A DNA stretch of 13,787 nt from Verrucomicrobiales bacterium (GTDB lineage: Bacteria; Verrucomicrobiota; Verrucomicrobiia; Verrucomicrobiales; DEV007), in NCBI GenBank assembly GCA_007123695.1, contig SLGN01000421.1, positions 1 through 13,787 on the forward strand, given 5' to 3'. Numbering within the stretch: position 1 is the stretch's first letter; each line of letters opens with the position of its first letter. The notes beneath the pieces are model-generated. The model did not search any database. It saw only the letters and a list, made by a program, of their open reading frames with translations, and was not told the DNA's origin. Both the position numbers and the translations under genes were made by a program. Shown in pieces: positions 2-13,787 of the stretch.

Positions 2-3000
2 ATCAACGTCTACGCCGGAGTGGACACGCGGATGCCCATCTCCATCAACCGAACCGCAGGAACGGTCAACGCCCAGGTGGGGCAGACAGGCAACGTGGTC
101 CTGCAGGCAAGTCAGGAGTGGAAGACCTCCAACATGCAGACCAGTGCCTTCGTGCAGATTGGCCACGGGGGAGTTGGGCAGATGGGTGAGTTCTTCGGTG
201 ACATTCACGTGGAGGCCGGTGGCAGCGTGGTGTTGCAGGGGGGCACAGCGACGCGCACTCACGCGACCATCGGCCACACCGTCGCGGCTCTGGTTGACTG
301 GAACCTTACCAACAATGCTGACCAGCAGTTGCGCTTCTTTGCTACAGCTTCCGACTTCGACAATCCCAACCTCCGTCGAGGTGAACTCTTCTCGGGGCGT
401 GTGACCACCGGTTTCGACCCGGCCATCGACCCGCACGCCGCCGCCCGGATCACCGATCCGCTCTATTTCCGGGGACGTGACCGGGAGATTGGCGACACCA
501 GCAATGAGTACAATGGCTTCCAGCGCGGCTTCGCGCCGCTGACCCTGGCACCCGATGGACCCGTGACTGTCGAGGCGCTGGACGGCAGCGTGATCACCGG
601 CATGCATGGCGACATCACTGTGATCGCCCGCAACGGCACCGTCCAACTGGAGGCAGGGACTACGCCCGACGACACCAACCAGCTCACCAACAGTGACAAC
701 ATGCACCGCGAGGGACGCTTCGCCCAGATCGGCCACGGCGGCACCGGTTCCGCCCAGGACGACCAGAACATGGGGTCTGGCTTCCGCATCGGCTCTTTGA
801 CATCCAATGCCAACACCTCGCGCGAGGACGTGCGGTTCCAGATCACCACCGATCCCGACGCCGATCCGGAGACTTCTTCGGGCGGACTCTCGCAGGTGAC
901 CGCGGGCGGATCTACCCTGAACCGTAGTCCAGCGCTGATGGGCATCACCGGCGATATTTTTGTGAAATCCGGGGGCAACATCGACCTGCTGGCGGGCAAC
1001 GACATCCATGACTTCGCCCAGATCGGACACGGCGGGGCGGCCTTGGCCGACTACGAAACCTCTTCCTTCATCCTCGGGGATGTGCAGGTGTCGGCCGGCG
1101 GAGACCTCACCCTGCGCGGTGGCGGATTCCTCTTCAACGAGGGGCGTCGCGGCAACTTCGATCTCCGGGCGTGGGCGCAGGTGGGACACGGGGGCTACCG
1201 TACCGGATTCTTCATGTTCAATGGCGACATCGATGTTTCGGTTGGCCGCGATCTCGGTCTGACCGGGGGTGCCTACGCCGCTACCTACGCCCAGATCGGC
1301 CATCAGGGCTTCGAATCTTGGGGCCAGTCCGGGGGGAACTTCTCGCGGGGAGAGCACTTCCTCTACGACGGGAACGTCGCACTGGTGCACAGCGTGCTCG
1401 ACGCCGGGCAGGCCACCGTGGAATACACTTTCACCGATTTCGACGGCAATGTGACCAACCAGTCGCGTAGCTTCGGCACTGCGGGCACCCTGCTGGGCGG
1501 TCGCAACACCGCCAACGTCAGCGTAGCTGTCGGCGGCGACATCCGTATGAACCATCTTCCCGATGCCCACCGCCAAAACTGGCGTTCCGAATTGCGCGGA
1601 GAGGTGAACCCAGAAAGCCAGACCCAAGGCACAAGGACGCAGCGCTCGCACGTGATGATCGGCCACGGAGGGGTGAGCACCCGCGCCTTCCGCAACAACA
1701 ACCCATTGGGCAACTACGGCAACAAGATCGGGGACATCCGCGTCAGCGCTGGCGGGAGCATCATCATGGAGAACGCCGGGGAGGCACGCGAGGTGCCCCA
1801 CCCATTCCTCCTGGTGGACGGAACCGCCGATCCCACCGGATCGGTCACCTACGGGTTGGAGCCAACCATCGTAGTGCGCGGGGGCGGCACGGACCGTTGG
1901 ACCCGCATCGGTCACGGTCTGGGGAGCGACACGGACCGGGTTGATGGATCCTCGACCCTCTTTGCGAACTCGACCGATTTGGCGGGAAACATCACCGTGA
2001 CGGCCGGCGGAGACATCATCGTTGACGCCAGCGCGGCGGACGCCAACGAAAACCCGCGCAACCTTGACTCTCTCTTCGGGGCGGCGAACCCCTCGCGACG
2101 CAACCCCGTCGTCATCGGCCACGGGGCGGTGGTCGACGCCCTTGACGCCGTGGTGCTGGGCAACGGTGAGTTGGTCAACGGCATCGCCGCGAGTTCGAAC
2201 ATCACGGTTGTGTCGGGTCGCGACATCGTGCTCCGCGGTGGCAAGGGGGTGGAGGGCTCGTCGGCCCAGATCGGTCATGGATTCAGCTCGGACGTAGGCA
2301 ATGATCCGGCACGTCGCTTCGGCATTCCCACCGGTTTCACCGGGAACATCAGCGTGAGTGCGGCCCGCAACCTGACGCTCGAGGCGGGCCACACCGCTTG
2401 GGTGGAGATGCCGGGAGGCATCCGCGGCTTGGCCCAGACCGTGGCCGGCGCGTTCGCCGCCATCGGCAATGGTGGCTTCATGATGGATCGTGCTCCCGCC
2501 CACGGCGACATTACCGTCTTCGTCGGCGGCGACATGTCTGTCATCTCCCAGCAACGCACCCAGGTCGGGACAAATACCGGAAGCGAGACGGGAGTTTACG
2601 TTCTCGCCAACCCGGAAGGATCCACCGCCATCGACCATGTCGCGAGTGCCTTCAACTTCGCAAAGGTTGGCCATGTCAACGCCGAGAACGGCAACCGCAC
2701 CACCGGCACAGGTGACCAAGTCCGCGCCTCAGACCAGAGCGGCGACATCAAGGTCGTCGTCACCAACAACCTCACCCTGCGCGGCGGGACAACGCCCGAC
2801 ATGAACACCCAGCCGATATACGGCGCCTTCGCCCAGATTGGGCACGGCGGTCCCAGCATCGGGGGCGACACCATCGGCGACATCACCGTCCTCGTCGGGA
2901 ACAATCTCAACGCCTTTGGCGGCACCACCAACGTGGGCTCCGAGATCCCGAACAATCCGAACAACTACACGATGATCGGGAACGGGGACTGGATCTTCAA

Positions 3001-4117
3001 CGCCTCCAGCAGCCCCGTTGCCCTCTTCCGCTCTGGGGCCGGGGGAACCCGCCGCGGCGACATCCAAGTCCTCGTCGGCAACAGCGCCGTCTTCGACCGA
3101 AGTCTTGTCGGGCACGCGGATCCGCGCGTATCGGTCCGGTTCACCTCCGGCGACGTCAGCATCGGAGTCAGCCGGAACAATCCGTTCTTCGGAGGAACCG
3201 GCACGCTCACCGCGATCAACAACAGCGCCTTCTTCAGCGGAGGATCCGTTCTCGGTGGATCCCAGATGAAGTTCTTCATGCCGGCGCGAAGCAACAACCT
3301 CATCAGCGGCAGCACCCTCATCAACAGCACTTCGGTCGGATTCGCCGAGGCTCCCCGGGATTTCGCCGGTTCCTTCAACCGCGCCAACGGGATCCTCGCA
3401 GGCCGCGCCGACGAGGTCTACCTGACCCCCGATCTGTGGTGGGACCGCCAGGGCCGCGCAGCCCAGGCAGGCTTCTCCGGAGGCGGCACCTTCCCCGGCG
3501 ACGCGGTCAGCGGCCAGGGCGGAGCCCTCGCGTTTGTCGAAAGCCCCGGCGGACTCCTCAACCTCGAAGAACTCCAGCCCGGCTCTCTCGGTGGCAGCAT
3601 TCCACTCTACCGCGACAACCATGGGATCAGTGGTCCCGGGCGCTACACTCTTTTCTACGATGCCATCACTGCGGTTTCGAACAACTTCCCCGTTCAGCCG
3701 GTCGATCCCGTCATTCCCCTTCCTCCCTCTCTCACCGACTTCACGGGCTTCTTCACCCCCCAGTTGCTCTTCGCCGAGACCTACGACGCCTTCTTCCGCG
3801 ACCAGTATATGTGGGACGGCATCGGCGGGGAAATGGACAATCTCTTCGCAGTCCTCGGACTGTTCGAGCGCGACTCCGAGACGGTCGAGGAGTCCGGGGC
3901 AACGAGGCTTGAGCGCCGTCTCGACCAGCTCTTCGGCAAGCGCCGCGATCCCGACTCGTTCGAAGAGCGGGCCGAGAGGGAGCGCAGCCGCCGCGCCCGC
4001 GGTTCGGCACCGGGTGCTCTCGGCATGTCCTACCACCTCTTCGTGCCCGGCACCAACCAGTATTCCAGCTTCCAGGTGTTCGGCCACCAGGCCGGCAACT
4101 TCTACCCGGAGCTGTGA
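2..4117 (+). CDS. Giant repeat exoprotein, TpsA/filamentous haemagglutinin-like (5' partial)
   Basis: The frame is open to the window edge. The GTG at 20 is an internal valine, because coding continues upstream as I-N-V-Y-A-G, so the N-terminus and any signal peptide or TPS secretion domain lie outside. The visible 1371 residues have almost no cysteine and are rich in Gly, Asn, Asp, Thr and Val. They carry 15 copies of an IGHGG-like anchor, usually followed by a G-D-I-x-V-x-x-G-G-x-L-x-L-x-G-G strand-turn pattern. That periodicity is typical of secreted right-handed beta-helix proteins. Repeats end near 3140. A low-repeat region follows, then a Pro-rich spacer near 3690-3740 and a tail (about 3750-4117) with an Arg/Glu-rich, probably helical stretch at 3900-4005. 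The next gene encodes a TpsB-type transporter, so I infer export by two-partner secretion and a surface or adhesive role. No enzymatic motif is visible. The repeat family itself is not one I can name. Confidence 0.75.
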   Translation: MNVYAGVDTRMPISINRTAGTVNAQVGQTGNVVLQASQEWKTSNMQTSAFVQIGHGGVGQMGEFFGDIHVEAGGSVVLQGGTATRTHATIGHTVAALVDWNLTNNADQQLRFFATASDFDNPNLRRGELFSGRVTTGFDPAIDPHAAARITDPLYFRGRDREIGDTSNEYNGFQRGFAPLTLAPDGPVTVEALDGSVITGMHGDITVIARNGTVQLEAGTTPDDTNQLTNSDNMHREGRFAQIGHGGTGSAQDDQNMGSGFRIGSLTSNANTSREDVRFQITTDPDADPETSSGGLSQVTAGGSTLNRSPALMGITGDIFVKSGGNIDLLAGNDIHDFAQIGHGGAALADYETSSFILGDVQVSAGGDLTLRGGGFLFNEGRRGNFDLRAWAQVGHGGYRTGFFMFNGDIDVSVGRDLGLTGGAYAATYAQIGHQGFESWGQSGGNFSRGEHFLYDGNVALVHSVLDAGQATVEYTFTDFDGNVTNQSRSFGTAGTLLGGRNTANVSVAVGGDIRMNHLPDAHRQNWRSELRGEVNPESQTQGTRTQRSHVMIGHGGVSTRAFRNNNPLGNYGNKIGDIRVSAGGSIIMENAGEAREVPHPFLLVDGTADPTGSVTYGLEPTIVVRGGGTDRWTRIGHGLGSDTDRVDGSSTLFANSTDLAGNITVTAGGDIIVDASAADANENPRNLDSLFGAANPSRRNPVVIGHGAVVDALDAVVLGNGELVNGIAASSNITVVSGRDIVLRGGKGVEGSSAQIGHGFSSDVGNDPARRFGIPTGFTGNISVSAARNLTLEAGHTAWVEMPGGIRGLAQTVAGAFAAIGNGGFMMDRAPAHGDITVFVGGDMSVISQQRTQVGTNTGSETGVYVLANPEGSTAIDHVASAFNFAKVGHVNAENGNRTTGTGDQVRASDQSGDIKVVVTNNLTLRGGTTPDMNTQPIYGAFAQIGHGGPSIGGDTIGDITVLVGNNLNAFGGTTNVGSEIPNNPNNYTMIGNGDWIFNASSSPVALFRSGAGGTRRGDIQVLVGNSAVFDRSLVGHADPRVSVRFTSGDVSIGVSRNNPFFGGTGTLTAINNSAFFSGGSVLGGSQMKFFMPARSNNLISGSTLINSTSVGFAEAPRDFAGSFNRANGILAGRADEVYLTPDLWWDRQGRAAQAGFSGGGTFPGDAVSGQGGALAFVESPGGLLNLEELQPGSLGGSIPLYRDNHGISGPGRYTLFYDAITAVSNNFPVQPVDPVIPLPPSLTDFTGFFTPQLLFAETYDAFFRDQYMWDGIGGEMDNLFAVLGLFERDSETVEESGATRLERRLDQLFGKRRDPDSFEERAERERSRRARGSAPGALGMSYHLFVPGTNQYSSFQVFGHQAGNFYPEL
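158..3121 (+). repeat. 15 degenerate IGHGG-anchored protein repeats with variable spacing
   Basis: Inside the exoprotein the motif I/V-G-H/N-G-G (often preceded by A-Q) recurs. The anchor Ile/Val codons begin at 158, 269, 728, 1022, 1181, 1295, 1658, 1907, 2114, 2270, 2462, 2666, 2837, 2975 and 3107. Most are followed, before the next anchor, by G-D/N-I-x-V and then G-G-D/N-L/I-x-L-x-G-G. Distances between anchors run from 111 to 459 bases (37 to 153 residues). The anchor is therefore conserved while the inserted segments differ in length and sequence. Copies are diverged at DNA level, which argues for old duplication and not recent slippage. Structurally this fits beta-helix coils with loops of varied size; that reading is inference. 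Confidence 0.8.
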
Positions 4118-4253
4118 AGCAAGGATTCGCCGGAGACAGTTCTCGAAGCGGCGACGATTCAAAAAATTGAAGTTTCCTCTTGCGAAGGGGCTCAGTAGAT
4201 TTCAAGATCCGGTGATACGTGGATCCCTCCCGAATTGTCCGACTCCGGAACCG
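4118..4253 (+). other. Intergenic spacer between exoprotein and transporter
   Basis: 136 bases between the two same-strand genes. I see no convincing -35/-10 pair, no terminator hairpin with a T-run, and no Shine-Dalgarno-like AGGAGG ahead of the ATG at 4254. This agrees with read-through co-transcription from upstream, with leaderless-like or SD-independent initiation as in several other genes here. Confidence 0.4.
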
Positions 4254-6785
4254 ATGAAGTCCCTGACCGCCAAAGCCATCTCCGCCCTGCTCCTTTTCTC
4301 CGCTCTCGAACGGGCGCAGGCGCAGGATTCGGATCTCGGCGGTCTTCCTCCCCTTCCGAATCTCGATCTCGGGGATCCGGAACGCAAGATGTCCTGGCGC
4401 GAAAAACGGGAACGCACCCGCCGCGCCGAGGAAAGCCGTTACGAGGGCAACGTCGTCCGCCGTGCCGACGACGACGCGGGTCGCGCCACTCTTGGCCAGC
4501 GGCTCTCCAGCGCAGCAAGCCAGAAAAAGGCGGCAGTTCCTCAGAAAGTTACCGTCCAGAGTTCCCTTCCTTCGACCGAGGACGGCATCACTGCGAGCGG
4601 ATCCCGCCTCCGCGCCTTCGGCGACGACCGCTATTGGGGCGAGATGCCCCCTCCCACTCCGGAAGAGGCGCTCATCGATCTCCCCCCCGCTCCCGACCTG
4701 CGCACTCCCGATCAAGTGACCCGCCGCGAGCGCATCCGCGACATGCGCGTCGCCAAGTTCGATCAGCGCAAGGCCGAGCTAGAGGCGCTGCGCGAAGAGA
4801 AGGAAGCCCGCCAACGCGCCGTCGTGAACCGTCCCGAAGCCGACCCGTCCACGGCGCTGGTCCTTGTCGAATCGCAGTCCCGCATGGGCAGCGGCTTCAT
4901 TGGCAACCAAGAGGCACCGCAGACGGTAGGGGAGGGGACTCTCCGGCCCTTCAACGAGGGTTCCACCTTCTTCAAAGACAACCAACTTCTCTACCGCGGC
5001 AACAATCCCGAGCCGAAGCCCGCCGTCTGGTGGAAGCGCGGGACCAACGAGCCGAGCGGTCCGGTCGAGGCCAAGCCGAAGTGGGAGTGGCGGAATCCCT
5101 TCGCCGCGACCAACGACGATGTCCAGCCCGTCACCTACAGCGTCCCGCGGGAGTCCGACTCGCGTGCCGGTGGCTACGCCGCCGCCGTCGCCTCCCAGGA
5201 GGGAACTTCTCTCACCTCCAACCTCCGTGGGATCCGCGTGGTCCGCTCGACCCGCGAGGTGGTCTCCAAAGGTTCCCCCGGTGCCTTCTCCGGAGTCGTC
5301 ACAGAGGGAGTCGATCTGCCTCCGAGGGTCTACAACGTTCTCTCCTCGCGGATCGGCAGTCCGCTTACCCTCGGGTCGCTCAACGAAATGGTGCGCGAGG
5401 CCGTTATCGCCTACCGTCGAAGCGACCTGCCCGTCGTCGATGTTCTCGTGCCCGAGCAGGAGATCACCTCCGGCGTTCTCCAACTCGTCATCATCGAAGG
5501 CCGTCTCGGCAATGTCCTCGTTGAGAATGCCAGCGACTCCGAGTCGCGCAACCTCGCCCGCCAGATCCGCTCCCAGCGAGGTGAGGTCATCCGCGAGAGC
5601 AAGCTCACCGACGACCTCAACTGGATCAATAAGCACCCCAACCGCCAAGTCGATCTCGTCTTCAGCCCCGGCGGCGGCTACGCCGAAACCGACATCATTC
5701 TCCGGAACGAGTCGAACCGCGAGCTGGTCGGCTACTTCTCCCTCGACAACTCCGGCAACTCCGCCCTGGGCGAATCGCGCGCGCTTCTCGGCGCTTCGTG
5801 GACCGGTCCTCTCTTCTTCGGCAACGACTCCATCCTCAGCTACCAGTTCACGACCAACATTGATGACGCCGCCACCCTCTACGGTCATAGCGGGGTCTTC
5901 TCGTCCTACCTGCCGTGGAGGCACCAGCTCACCCTTCTCGGGGCCTATGTCTTTACCGAGGCGCCGGTGCCGCTCGGAGACGGAGCCCTCTTCACCAGCG
6001 GTGGCGCGAACAAGCAAGGCAGCATGCGCTACGGCATCCCCCTCCCCGGCATCGGACCGGTTTCGCACGAGTTCGAACTGGGAATGGACTTCAAGTCGAA
6101 CCAGACCGCTTTGGCCTTCGACCAGATTCAGGTTTTCGACTCCACCGCCGAAATCGTCCAATACAGCATGGGCTACAACATCGTCGCACGCGACCGCACT
6201 GGTGTCTGGCGCGGTTCCGCGACCGTCGTGAACAGCCCCGGCAACGCCACCAACAAGAACAACGACTTTGTTTTCCAATCGCAGCGTGCCGGAGCCACCG
6301 CCGCCTACACCTACGGCCTCGCTACGATCGAGCGCGACCAGCAACTGCCGCAGGGATGGTCCGCCTACGCCCGCGTTCAGGGCCAGGCTTCCAACAGCAA
6401 CCTTCTCGCGACCGAGGCGCTCGGTGCTGGCGGCTTCGACAGCGTCCGGGGTTGGGAACAGCGCATCATCCTCGGAGACAGCGGCGTGGTCTTCTCGACC
6501 GAACTTCGCACCCCGATCTGGTATCCGTCCACCTTCCTCGGATTCGGGAATGTCCAGGATGGAGCCTACGGTCTCATCTTCTTCGACTATGCCTCGCTGT
6601 CTGCGGCCCAGCCCACGCCCGGATTGCCGTCGGATTTCGAGATCGGTTCCGTCGGTCTCGGCGTGCGCTACCAGCGCGACAACTGGCTTTCGCTGCGCGT
6701 CGATTACGGCTTTCAAGTCATCGAAGAAGGCTTCGAAGACGGGAACGTCGGCCGCTGGGAAATCGGGGCCACGGTCACTTTCTGA
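4254..6785 (+). CDS. TpsB-type outer-membrane transporter (ShlB/FhaC/HecB family) with long N-terminal extension
   Basis: 843 residues from the ATG at 4254. I chose this start because it gives a clean signal peptide (K3, hydrophobic 8-17, cleavage after A-Q-A at about 21-23), although the frame is open further upstream through the exoprotein gene. Residues 25 to about 320 are a Pro- and charge-rich extension with a helical Arg/Glu/Lys stretch near 155-192. Two POTRA-like domains follow: about 325-418 (GVDLPP, then the IIEGRLGNV strand) and about 419-487 (NKHPNRQVDLVFSPG, ending in a DIIL strand). The beta-barrel covers about 488-843, with the Omp85-superfamily VRGW motif at 731-734 (VRGY in most members) and a C-terminal Phe. 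Family members bind the secretion domain of a TpsA partner in the periplasm and pass it through the barrel. The upstream gene, 136 bp away on the same strand, is the obvious partner. The usual family length is roughly 550-600 residues, so the extra length lies in the extension. Confidence 0.88.
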   Translation: MKSLTAKAISALLLFSALERAQAQDSDLGGLPPLPNLDLGDPERKMSWREKRERTRRAEESRYEGNVVRRADDDAGRATLGQRLSSAASQKKAAVPQKVTVQSSLPSTEDGITASGSRLRAFGDDRYWGEMPPPTPEEALIDLPPAPDLRTPDQVTRRERIRDMRVAKFDQRKAELEALREEKEARQRAVVNRPEADPSTALVLVESQSRMGSGFIGNQEAPQTVGEGTLRPFNEGSTFFKDNQLLYRGNNPEPKPAVWWKRGTNEPSGPVEAKPKWEWRNPFAATNDDVQPVTYSVPRESDSRAGGYAAAVASQEGTSLTSNLRGIRVVRSTREVVSKGSPGAFSGVVTEGVDLPPRVYNVLSSRIGSPLTLGSLNEMVREAVIAYRRSDLPVVDVLVPEQEITSGVLQLVIIEGRLGNVLVENASDSESRNLARQIRSQRGEVIRESKLTDDLNWINKHPNRQVDLVFSPGGGYAETDIILRNESNRELVGYFSLDNSGNSALGESRALLGASWTGPLFFGNDSILSYQFTTNIDDAATLYGHSGVFSSYLPWRHQLTLLGAYVFTEAPVPLGDGALFTSGGANKQGSMRYGIPLPGIGPVSHEFELGMDFKSNQTALAFDQIQVFDSTAEIVQYSMGYNIVARDRTGVWRGSATVVNSPGNATNKNNDFVFQSQRAGATAAYTYGLATIERDQQLPQGWSAYARVQGQASNSNLLATEALGAGGFDSVRGWEQRIILGDSGVVFSTELRTPIWYPSTFLGFGNVQDGAYGLIFFDYASLSAAQPTPGLPSDFEIGSVGLGVRYQRDNWLSLRVDYGFQVIEEGFEDGNVGRWEIGATVTF

Positions 6786-8515: not shown

Positions 8516-10123
<1,608 letters not shown>

Positions 10124-10131
10124 AGTTCTGC

Positions 10132-10163
10132 GAAAGAAAGGGGGGAAGGGAAGGGGAGGGAGA
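10132..10163 (+). other. 32-base pure purine tract with G-quadruplex motif
   Basis: Every base from 10132 to 10163 on the + strand is A or G. Within it, 10140-10160 consists of G6, AA, G3, AA, G4, A, G3, which meets the standard four-run G-quadruplex rule with very short loops. It lies 8 bases upstream of the ABC-F ATG. The ABC-F mRNA would carry the complementary pyrimidine tract, and the G strand would be its template. The tract could also form a triplex. Any regulatory effect is inference. Confidence 0.6.
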
Positions 10164-10177
10164 TGCAGCCCCTACAT

Positions 10178-10222
10178 AGCCGAAGCCCCGTCCGGCGCAA
10201 ACTGAAACCGGGGCGGGCGGCT
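10178..10222 (-). terminator. Hairpin at the 3' end of the M1 peptidase gene
   Basis: AGCCG (10178-10182) and GCCCCG (10185-10190) pair with CGGGGC (10209-10214) and CGGCT (10218-10222), giving an 11-bp interrupted GC-rich stem with an 18-base loop. It overlaps the M1 stop codon. There is no T-run downstream in the M1 direction, so it may reduce and not abolish transcription into the ABC-F gene 97 bp downstream. Confidence 0.35.
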
Positions 10223-12851
10223 ACTGGGCCGACGCCTCGTTCCGCTTTTTCAGGGACTCCAGTTCCTCGCGGAGACTGTCGAGCTGCTTCCTTGCCTCCA
10301 GCATCTCGCGGCGCAGGTCCTCGACCTCGGCCGACTGCGGCTTTTCGCCGCTGAGTTTTTTGACGGCTTCTTCCGCAGCCTTGGTATCGGGCAGGTCGGG
10401 ACGGCCCGAATCGGCGAAGGATCGCAGGGCACCGAGGGATCGGGTGTCTCCGAGGATGCCGAGCGCGCTGACTGCCGCGCGGCGGAGCCCTTCCCTCGGA
10501 TCCTCGAGATACCCGAGGAGAAAGAGGCGGATTTCCTCGCGCGGTTCTTCCTTGAGTTCGCGCGACACCTTTGCGAGGGCTTCAAGCGCCCGACCGAACT
10601 GTTCAGTGGGATGATGTCCGTCCCGGCCGGCGAGATGCTCCCTCAGCGGTGCGGCGAGGGATGGATCCGGCGAGGCGGCAAGACCGCGGATCGCCGCCGA
10701 GGCGACGACGTTGCGGAAGCTGTCGCGCCCGAGCGATTCGAGCAGGAGCGGCCGAACTTCCACGGCGGGATACTTTCCGGCGGCGGCGAGGAGGTCGGCG
10801 ACCAGATCGGGATTGCGCTCTTTCCCGAGCTGGTCGCGCAGCGCAGCAAGGGCGGACTGGGAATAGGATTTGGCGATCCCCGCGAGGACTTCGCGCCGCA
10901 CCCGCGCGTCGCCCTGGTCGCGTGCCTCCAAGAGAATGGCGAGCGCCTCGGGCGTGCGGGTTTTGGCGAGGGCTTTCGCCGCCGCGATGCGCACCCCGTG
11001 GAAGGCATCCTCCCGCAGAAGCCGCCCGAGCCGGTCGAGGCTGTCGCGGTCGCGGCGGTCTCCCAGCGTCTCGGCGGCGAGCAACCGCCCGATCGGGTCC
11101 TCGCCGTTCTCGAGCTGGGCGTGGAGCAGGGGATTGGGCGGAGTGAAGTCGATCTTCGCAAGAACGGTCACCTCCGGATCGATGCGGACGATGCGCGGCT
11201 TCTTCGGCAGGGCGAAGTGGAAATCCTCGTGGGCCTTCCGGACCTCGATGGTGAAATCGTGGCCGCGGCCTTCTTCGTCGACGAAGCGGACCGGCAGAGG
11301 CAGGGAGAAGAGCAGGACGCGCTCGCTCGTCTTTTGATTCTGGCGCACCGTGAGCTTCGCGAGGCCGCGGGCCTCGTCCCACACGTAGACGATGCCCAGA
11401 GCCGGCGTCCCGCCGTGGTGGACCCACTGGTCGAAGAATTCGTCGTAGGACCGCCCCGATACCTCCTCGACCACGGCGAGTAGATCGCCGGTGACGACGT
11501 TTCCGTTCCGGTGGCGCTCCAGGTAGCTGCGGATGGCTTCGCGGTAGAGGTCGGCGCCCAACTGGGAGCGGAGCATGTGCAGCACCCACGAGCCCTTCGG
11601 ATAGGCGCGGTAGTCGAACTGCTCCATGGGGTTGCGGTAGCCCCGCCAGACGATGGGCTTTTCGTCCTTGTTCTCCACGAGCGACTTCGCGTCGAGCAGC
11701 AGCCGGTAGCGCATCTCGTCGAGGCCGAATTTGTGCCCGTCGTAGAGATGCGTGTAGTAGGTCGCGAATCCTTCGTTGAGCCAGAGGTGCGACCAGTCCT
11801 TGCAGGTGACCAGGTTTCCGAACCACTGGTGCGCGATCTCGTGGGCGTCGAGCCGATGCGACGTGCGGAGGTTTTCCGATTCGGCGGAAAAGAGCGTGTT
11901 CGTCGTCAGAGTCGTGACGCTGGTGTTCTCCATGCCGCCCGCGACGAAGTCGGCCACGCACACGCTGTAGTATTTGTCCCACGGATAGGCCACCCCGATC
12001 TCGCTCTCGAAGAACTCGAGGATCTGTGCGGTGTCCCGAAACGAGTTCTCCGCTGCGGCGAACTCCGACGGAGGTGTGAGGAAGGCCAGCGGCAGGTCGC
12101 CGTGCTTCCCCTCGAGCTTTTGGAAATGGCCCCCCACCACCGAGATCAGGTAGTTCACGTGCTCCTTTTCCTGCTTCCAATGGAAAACCGTCTCCTCTCC
12201 CTCGTCGCGCTCCTCGGCGAGGCGGCCGTTCGAGACGACGGTCATTCCCCTCGGCACCCGGCAGATCACCTCGCTGGTGAAGCGCTCGTTGGGGGAGTCG
12301 TAGCAGGGAAACCAGTGGCGGTGCCTCTCGGGCTGGCCCTGGGTCCAGAAATGGTCGTCTCCCGCCGGATAGCCCATCGCCTCGGTGCGGAAGAACCAGC
12401 CGTCTTGCGGATGGGCCCGGAAGCGAAGCGACAGATTCGTTTCGGCGCCCGGGGGGATGGGCTCAGCGAAGGTGAGGACGATCTCCGACTTTCCAACCTC
12501 GTGGCCGCGCAGCGCAACGGGCGAGTCGATATCGAGGATTTCGAGATCCACTGCGTCGAGACGCAGGCGTGAAAGCGGCATCGCGATCGGCGCAAAGGTG
12601 TAAGTGGCCGTGCCGCTGACGGATCGCTCCTCGAAGTCGGGGCTGAGCTCGAGGCGCAGATGCTTCAGGTCGATCTCCCGGTTCGGGGCGTAGCGGCGGT
12701 CCTTGCCTCCGGCGTTCGCGTCGGTCGCCGCGCCCGCATTCTCGTGGAGCCTGCCCTTGCACTGGCAAACCTCCCAGCCGCCGTGGAAATGGAGCTCGGC
12801 CTTGACGGCGAACGGAGCGAGGAAGGAAAGCGCGAGAATCAGAAGACGCAT
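10221..12851 (-). CDS. Secreted M1-family metallopeptidase with C-terminal HEAT-like repeats and coiled coil
   Basis: 876 residues from the ATG at 12851, chosen because it gives a signal peptide (about 1-18, cleavage after VKA); the frame is open further upstream, but that stretch runs into the heptamer repeat and looks non-coding. Residues about 55-270 are the M1 N-terminal beta domain, including WTQGQPERHRHWFPCYDSPN. The exopeptidase motif is GGMEN (305-309; GAMEN in most members). Zinc ligands are H337, H341 (HEIAH) and E360 (LWLNEG), with catalytic E338 and the transition-state Tyr417 in YPKG. Residues about 585-835 are helical HEAT-like repeats, and 840-872 a charged coiled coil. M1 enzymes remove N-terminal residues from peptides; the signal peptide places this one in the periplasm or outside. 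A short HFHGG...CQC segment follows the signal. It shares a strand with the ABC-F gene downstream. No clear Shine-Dalgarno is visible. Confidence 0.93.
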   Translation of the reverse strand: MRLLILALSFLAPFAVKAELHFHGGWEVCQCKGRLHENAGAATDANAGGKDRRYAPNREIDLKHLRLELSPDFEERSVSGTATYTFAPIAMPLSRLRLDAVDLEILDIDSPVALRGHEVGKSEIVLTFAEPIPPGAETNLSLRFRAHPQDGWFFRTEAMGYPAGDDHFWTQGQPERHRHWFPCYDSPNERFTSEVICRVPRGMTVVSNGRLAEERDEGEETVFHWKQEKEHVNYLISVVGGHFQKLEGKHGDLPLAFLTPPSEFAAAENSFRDTAQILEFFESEIGVAYPWDKYYSVCVADFVAGGMENTSVTTLTTNTLFSAESENLRTSHRLDAHEIAHQWFGNLVTCKDWSHLWLNEGFATYYTHLYDGHKFGLDEMRYRLLLDAKSLVENKDEKPIVWRGYRNPMEQFDYRAYPKGSWVLHMLRSQLGADLYREAIRSYLERHRNGNVVTGDLLAVVEEVSGRSYDEFFDQWVHHGGTPALGIVYVWDEARGLAKLTVRQNQKTSERVLLFSLPLPVRFVDEEGRGHDFTIEVRKAHEDFHFALPKKPRIVRIDPEVTVLAKIDFTPPNPLLHAQLENGEDPIGRLLAAETLGDRRDRDSLDRLGRLLREDAFHGVRIAAAKALAKTRTPEALAILLEARDQGDARVRREVLAGIAKSYSQSALAALRDQLGKERNPDLVADLLAAAGKYPAVEVRPLLLESLGRDSFRNVVASAAIRGLAASPDPSLAAPLREHLAGRDGHHPTEQFGRALEALAKVSRELKEEPREEIRLFLLGYLEDPREGLRRAAVSALGILGDTRSLGALRSFADSGRPDLPDTKAAEEAVKKLSGEKPQSAEVEDLRREMLEARKQLDSLREELESLKKRNEASAQ

Positions 12852-12966: not shown

Positions 12967-13001
12967 CCGTCCACCGTCCACCGTTCACCGTCCACCGTCC
13001 A
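12967..13001. repeat. Tandem heptamer CCGTCCA, five units
   Basis: Units at 12967-12973, 12974-12980, 12981-12987, 12988-12994 and 12995-13001 read CCGTCCA, except the third, CCGTTCA. A partial unit, CCGT, follows at 13002. On the minus strand the unit reads TGGACGG. The variant middle unit reads TGAACGG, and its TGA is the stop codon of the 12985-13787 frame. Seven is not a multiple of three, so each gained or lost unit would change the reading frame through the array. Confidence 0.9.
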
Positions 13002-13338
13002 CCGTTTCCCCCTCCGAGCGGGCGACGACGACGGCCGCGACGGTGTCGCTGAAGACGTTGACCGTGGTCCGGGCCATGTCCAGAGGCCGGTCGAGCGCGA
13101 GGACGAGCCCAAGGCTGGCTTTGATCATGTCCTCGCTGAATCCCGCGCTCTGCATGATGATGATGATCGCCACGATGCTCGCCGCCGGGATTCCGGCGAC
13201 GCCGATGCTGGAGACGAGGGCCAGAAGCACGACGATGGCCTGCTGCGAGATGGACAGATCGATTCCGAGCACCTGGGCCGCGAACAGCACGACGACGCAC
13301 TCGTAGAGGGCCGTTCCGTTCATGTTCACCGTCGCTCC
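12985..13338 (-). other. C-terminal third of a dicarboxylate/amino acid:cation symporter (DAACS, GltP-like)
   Basis: From GATVNMNGTALYE to the stop, the frame matches TM7, HP2 and TM8 of glutamate/aspartate transporters. TM7 carries NMNGT (NMDGT in most members, where the Asp helps form a sodium site). HP2 carries SIGVAGIP. TM8 reads LDRPLDMARTTVNVFSD and keeps the equivalents of GltPh D390, D394, R397, T398, N401 and D405. The retained Arg predicts acidic amino-acid substrates. Everything before TM7, including TM1-6 and HP1, is missing and replaced by the glutathione transferase segment, so this module alone cannot transport. Its C-terminus, ETVDGGR, is encoded by the heptamer array. Confidence 0.85.
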
Positions 13339-13787
13339 TACCCCCGACGTTGTGTAGAGATCCCGAAGATACGGCCACAGGTGCTCGTACTCCCGGACGT
13401 ACTGGACGTTACACATGAAGTGCGTGTGGTAGACCTGGTCGAACCGGACCAGCGTCGTGAACATCGCGACGTCGGCCTCGGTGAGTCGGTCGCCTGCGAG
13501 GTATCGCTGCTCGCCCAGCACGGCGTTCCAGTGCTCGAGCGCCGAGAACAGCTCCTCGACGGCCTCGTCGTAGGGCTCCTGTCGGGTCGCGAAGCCGGCC
13601 CGGTAGACGCCGTTGTTGATCGGCTCGTAGATTTCGTCGATGATCCGGTCCACCTCCTCGCGGTACCCCTCCGGGTAGAGGTCGACGTCCCGGGTCGCGT
13701 ACGCGTCGAACTCGGTGTCGAGCATCCGCATGATCTCTCGCGACTCGTTGTTGACGATGGTGTTCTCGTGGGTGTCCCAGAGGACGG
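12985..13787 (-). CDS. Chimeric frame: Xi-class glutathione transferase C-terminal half joined to symporter C-terminus (5' partial)
   Basis: The frame is open to the right edge. The ATG at 13731 is internal, because upstream codons read VLWDTHENTIVNNES, matching the VPVLWD...NES segment of glutathionyl-hydroquinone reductases (YqjG/ECM4 type). The GST part continues with INNGVYRAGFATRQEPYDEAV, RYLAGDRLTEADVAMFTTLVRFD, HFMCN and LWPYLRDLY, the typical all-helical C-terminal domain; the catalytic Cys-Pro motif would lie outside the window. These enzymes reduce glutathionyl-quinones. The 144 residues up to LRDLY contain 30 Asp/Glu, 12 Arg and no Lys, and use CGG/CGA for 11 of 12 Arg codons, unlike the CGC-rich neighbouring genes. 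This is the signature of a salt-in halophile. At TVNM the frame passes without a break into a symporter C-terminus. The GST would normally continue to a further C-terminal segment. I read this as two broken genes joined, most likely by assembly. Confidence 0.75.
   Translation of the reverse strand, partial: VLWDTHENTIVNNESREIMRMLDTEFDAYATRDVDLYPEGYREEVDRIIDEIYEPINNGVYRAGFATRQEPYDEAVEELFSALEHWNAVLGEQRYLAGDRLTEADVAMFTTLVRFDQVYHTHFMCNVQYVREYEHLWPYLRDLYTTSGVGATVNMNGTALYECVVVLFAAQVLGIDLSISQQAIVVLLALVSSIGVAGIPAASIVAIIIIMQSAGFSEDMIKASLGLVLALDRPLDMARTTVNVFSDTVAAVVVARSEGETVDGGR
13321..13347 (-). other. Junction between glutathione transferase and symporter sequence
   Basis: On the minus strand these codons read S-G-V-G-A-T-V-N-M. 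Xi-class transferases have PG(I/V)AETVN(F/M) here and DAACS symporters have P(V/L)GATINM. The two families share T-V/I-N-M, so the switch occurs within a few bases of local identity. Sequence to the right is acidic and lysine-free; sequence to the left is hydrophobic membrane protein. Confidence 0.7.

Follow-up and report, generated by a model that had tools for sequence, protein, structure and literature searches.

An in-frame transferase–symporter frame at a contig end in a Verrucomicrobiales draft genome, best explained by a misjoin

At the end of a contig binned with the Verrucomicrobiales, part of a glutathione transferase runs without a frame break into part of a symporter, and the question is whether the organism carries such a gene fusion or whether the join was made outside the cell. 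The window analyzed here is the whole of contig C117 (13,787 bp), one of the 759 contigs of a draft genome that totals 4,428,105 bp and has an estimated completeness of 79.8%. The evidence set out below leaves us with little doubt that the frame is an artefact of the assembly or the library and not a real gene fusion; most likely the assembly graph was misjoined at a k-mer of 18–21 bp common to both genes.

The fused frame and its switch point

The frame lies on the minus strand (13785–12985, 266 aa), is free of internal stops, and remains open at the contig end. Pfam places GST_C_2 at residues 71–141 (E 5e-14) and SDF at residues 149–256 (E 4.9e-30), the latter covering profile positions 283–386 of 387. 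The switch from one gene to the other falls at GGAGCGACGGTGAACATG(AAC), 13338–13318 on the minus strand. The features on which the argument turns are these:

13339..13787, minus strand: foreign end piece, an internal portion of a haloarchaeal glutathione S-transferase, running off the contig end (98.5% DNA identity to the archaeal locus L041, Pfam GST_C_2, codon use)
13318..13338, minus strand: junction, bases fitting both genes (18 bp, 13321–13338, identical in L041; 21 bp should AAC follow ATG in the archaeal donor)
12985..13338, minus strand: last quarter of a verrucomicrobial SDF symporter, 117 aa including GATVNMNGT, stop at 12985–12987 (Pfam SDF 283–386; full-length symporters up to 90% identical)
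Contig C127, 2680–3822 of locus L009: symporter front half, running off the contig end at base 3822 (SDF profile 3–274)

The first-pass annotation had described an in-frame chimera of the two families at 13321..13347, and the open frame, the two domains, and the overlapping switch point agree with that description. It had also held that neither partner is complete, as proves to be the case: the symporter lacks profile positions 1–282, which fits the missing helices and HP1 it listed, and the junction cuts off the C-terminal end of the transferase. The N-terminal half of the transferase is missing too, a point which that annotation did not raise, because the contig stops there; with C117 complete in the window, the junction lies only about 450 bp from the contig end. 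GC content is uninformative here, with no step at the junction (62–67% in 300-bp windows from 12500 on).

The junction coincides with a motif found in both families. Haloarchaeal transferases read AETVNM, or GATVNM in protein P0002 and in L041, and SDF symporters read PLGATVNM(N/D)GT. P0002 continues as GATVNMNH, with Asn after Met; to judge from this protein, as distinct from its DNA, a P0002-like donor strain with Asn at that place would share 20 or 21 bases with the symporter gene. A 19-base direct repeat, CCGTCCACCGTCCACCGTT, occurs nearby in two copies with a spacing of 21 (12967–13006), overlapping the symporter stop codon; C501 and C514 hold the only two other copies of its 14-base core in the bin.

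Origins of the two parts

With the 158-aa transferase part as query, public species genomes yielded 213 pattern matches, 193 of which were confirmed as relatives, and the analysis retained the best 80. Every one of these 80 has a record title that names a haloarchaeal group or an archaeon, the genera given there being ones that we take to be haloarchaea. The best match, L041 (Natrialbaceae archaeon B1-Br10_E2g2, LKMK01000048.1), is a MAG, from soda-lake brine by its name; it is identical to window positions 13787–13321 at 98.5% of bases (467 bp, 7 mismatches), and its gene product is 99% identical to the transferase part over 156 residues. The 18-mer GGAGCGACGGTGAACATG (13338–13321) is unchanged in L041, and beyond it an ungapped comparison gives scattered, background-level matches. 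Because three of the seven mismatches fall within the 13 bases preceding the 18-mer, the donor would be a relative of L041 belonging to a different strain. The L041 gene itself is intact, a 349-aa frame that continues as an ordinary transferase, and a search of the L041 genome with the fused frame returned residues 1–157 as its sole match. When the 3,468 bp of L041 were compared with the bin's own genome, the only matches were C117:13318–13787 (98%) and a transferase on C159 (66%), and thus no other archaeal neighbor of the L041 gene is found in the bin.

Codon use was compared by means of a synonymous codon score whose training sets were 76 haloarchaeal transferase segments and, on the bacterial side, four window genes. 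Per codon, the transferase part scored +0.136 and the same segment of L041 +0.129; the maximum in 67 stretches (148 codons each) of the four window genes was +0.033, although these genes also train the bacterial side of the score, which favors separation. The symporter part scored −0.03 and the C127 half −0.11. By this measure the codon use of the transferase part is haloarchaeal, in agreement with an archaeal origin.

The hallmark of xi-class glutathione transferases is an N-terminal thioredoxin-fold domain with a CPWAHR motif. The domain and motif are present in the L041 gene and in the C159 copy, but the window fragment does not contain them, as they would lie past the contig end. The earlier assignment of the fragment to class xi is therefore one that the names of its relatives suggest, and the domain that defines the class is absent from the fragment itself. 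NCBIfam returned no family at cut-off for any of the five proteins tested, P0002 included. The C159 copy (L010 2192–3397) is the bin's own transferase of the same type, with 46% protein identity to the archaeal fragment.

The symporter part has different affinities. Among the best 120 of 5,529 matches, the top match overall is P0153 (90%), and the best matches named to an organism come from Prosthecobacter and other Verrucomicrobia (79–87% identical). For the neighboring ABC-F ATPase (8516–10123) and M1 peptidase (10221–12851), compared across 56 genomes including the bin's own, the best matches fall in the same genus, at 93% and 69%, respectively. These similarities place the bacterial side of the junction with the bin. 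The symporter type found in most of the bin's genus is a different one, at 52–65% identity; matches above 75%, among those listed, come from family f4, two f2 genomes (G298, G372), and metagenome proteins.

The remainder of the contig offers some observations of its own. The M1 peptidase carries HEAT repeats and adjoins the ABC-F ATPase (8516–12851), and the two lie close together on one contig in several genomes of the genus (e.g., G001 C151, G010 C109, G030 C25, G008 C46). Toward the other end, a large protein with IGHGG-like repeats (20–4117) is open at the contig start, has no Pfam family, and is followed by a ShlB/FhaC-type transporter with a POTRA domain; the region 2–6785 resembles a two-partner secretion pair whose passenger is undescribed.

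The front half of the symporter

SDF occurs at three places in the bin: complete on C582, as positions 3–274 on C127, and as positions 283–386 in the window, where the full transport core (profile 1–387) is not found. The same full-length proteins turn up as matches for the C127 half and for the window part (P0180 at 85% and 87%; P0153 at 80% and 90%), and both halves are matched by all 112 full-length symporters (at least 400 aa) among the matches listed in two symporter searches. The gap between them could be measured in the 104 of these that have the front half aligned to its last residue, the other 8 being left out, and the distance to GATVNM is exactly 9 residues in 104 of 104. The simplest reading of these alignments is that the C127 half and the window part would be a single gene divided between C127 and C117, with a gap of 27 bp.

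We regard it as very unlikely that they are instead two separate truncated genes, a reading under which the transferase join would be foreign all the same. C127 and the window have no overlap, not even a common 15-mer, and the genus mostly has another symporter type; these points, together with the gene order described below, would suit two genes. Yet both halves are of the same type, unlike the usual one of the genus, and share their best proteins at the identities just given; they are complementary, with an identical gap throughout, and they account for all SDF sequence in the bin apart from the complete copy.

Gene order in relatives was considered as support for joining C127 to C117 and gives none. 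The M1 peptidase (C117) and tilS (C127) are on different contigs in 12 of the 12 same-genus genomes that match both, among the matches listed, and the symporter regions of five relatives contain no neighbor genes from either contig, just weak ABC-ATPase matches. The lack of linkage could be due to the draft state of the contigs and to acquisition of the symporter. The tilS gene on C127 has its best match in the same genus (60–63%). Directly before the C127 symporter half is an IS200-like (Y1) transposase gene (L009 1540–2655); this neighbor, and a symporter type unlike that of the rest of the genus, suggest that the bin's symporter may have been acquired.

Misjoin, library chimera, or fusion

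The first-pass annotation had named homologues of the same fused architecture in other genomes among the signs of a real gene fusion. Three protein searches, of which the best 120 of 7,975 matches (8,000 candidates scored), of 1,725, and of 5,529 were considered, yielded 251 distinct homologues among the matches listed; 120 have the transferase part only, 131 the symporter part only, and none has both. The second search was centered on the junction (residues 125–190), where a fused relative would be expected on top, and its rows at 100% coverage (P0124, P0139, P0148) contain the SDF domain only. Nor are both parts found together, among the matches listed, in any of 55 relatives (56 genomes with the bin's own, 36 matching) or in any of 385 other genomes of the order (386 with its own, 184 matching at E 1e-30).

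A misjoin would proceed as follows. The verrucomicrobial symporter gene and the haloarchaeal transferase gene would have some 18–21 bases in common where both encode (G)ATVNM; at this common k-mer the assembler would pass from one genome to the other, producing a contig that ends in ~450 bp of archaeal sequence and leaving the true symporter front at the dead end of C127, 27 bp before the junction. The two organisms were presumably present in one sample, and it was probably the assembly graph, at small k, that produced the join, as opposed to a DNA molecule in the library. The frame survives such a join because the same codons are common to both genes in the same phase, so that an open frame is no sign of function. 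The shared bases were rejected as sole evidence: chance 17-mers in common with the window occur in 5 of 80 haloarchaeal loci, and a shared 18-mer alone is therefore barely beyond chance. What chance does not account for is its position, at the very point where the match to the archaeal gene breaks off. Besides the missing overlap and gene-order link between C127 and C117, it stands against a misjoin that the reading frame is kept, as it would be in a real fusion, and that the exact overlap of 18 bp is shorter than k = 21, the usual smallest k of common iterative assemblers. Vavourakis et al. 2018 (PMC6146748) obtained their soda-lake sediment MAGs with MEGAHIT at a minimum k of 21, and MEGAHIT also served for brine metagenome B1-Br10 (PMC4766312), to which the name of L041 points. 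Our guess is that the window DNA comes from one of these soda-lake data sets.

Within the strong expectation of an artefact, we reserve a modest share for a library chimera, in which archaeal and bacterial fragments were joined at their common bases during amplification or library preparation and the product was adopted by the assembler. An 18-bp common stretch suits template switching as well, and L041 itself accounts for 18, not 21, bases; however, an artificial molecule is usually rare in comparison with the true reads, and here it would have had to outcompete the true continuation. That a haloarchaeal transferase piece recombined by microhomology into the bacterial symporter gene, giving a real and probably nonfunctional fusion, seems to us highly improbable. 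The frame is kept across the junction, and, with L041 a soda-lake brine MAG by its name, the two organisms may at a guess have shared a habitat; but joining the same codons in phase preserves the frame by itself, the archaeal piece has hardly changed and retains haloarchaeal codon use, the symporter front is cut off by the end of C127 27 bp short of the junction, C117 in turn terminates within the foreign piece, and no fused relative appears among the matches listed. Slimmer still is the chance of a recent archaeon–bacterium recombination at these 18–21 bases that persists as an in-frame minority allele beside an intact symporter, the front of which would be on C127.

The case for a misjoin rests on the different origins of the two parts, on archaeal DNA that has barely changed, on a junction close to where the contig stops, on a symporter front stranded on C127, and on finding no fused relative among the matches listed. 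Of the causes offered by the first-pass annotation, which also doubted that such a fusion could work, a chimeric contig is the one that these results support, with partners from two domains of life, the archaeal one intact elsewhere and half of the bacterial one on C127; for its alternative, microhomology-mediated recombination, nothing was found in favor of an event in a living cell. The finding is an ordinary one, and its use is as a worked example of a misjoin passing for an in-frame gene fusion: where two unrelated families have identical in-phase codons, the reading frame stays open and gene-calling programs predict a fusion protein. Before this genome enters surveys of gene fusions or of archaeal–bacterial transfer, the final ~450 bp of C117 should be trimmed off. 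Were the fusion real, it would represent a very fresh transfer between domains.

Comparison with known systems

The archaeal piece corresponds to haloarchaeal glutathione S-transferases or glutathionyl-hydroquinone reductases (L041, P0002) and, near-identical to L041 as it is, differs from them in having neither the N-terminal half nor the C-terminal end. The bacterial piece corresponds to verrucomicrobial dicarboxylate/amino acid:cation symporters of the SDF family (P0153, P0180, P0128), to which its C-terminal part is 86–90% identical; it differs in that the front three quarters are absent from C117 and are found at the end of C127. The join as a whole most resembles the inter-species chimeric contigs of short-read metagenomes, which a review describes as arising via k-mers common to genomes, mainly of related species (PMC7299287). 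As in those contigs, two genomes meet in one contig across a short exact stretch close to its end, and the true continuation lies on another contig; C117 differs from them in that the switch passes between domains of life and stays in frame by way of in-phase codons.
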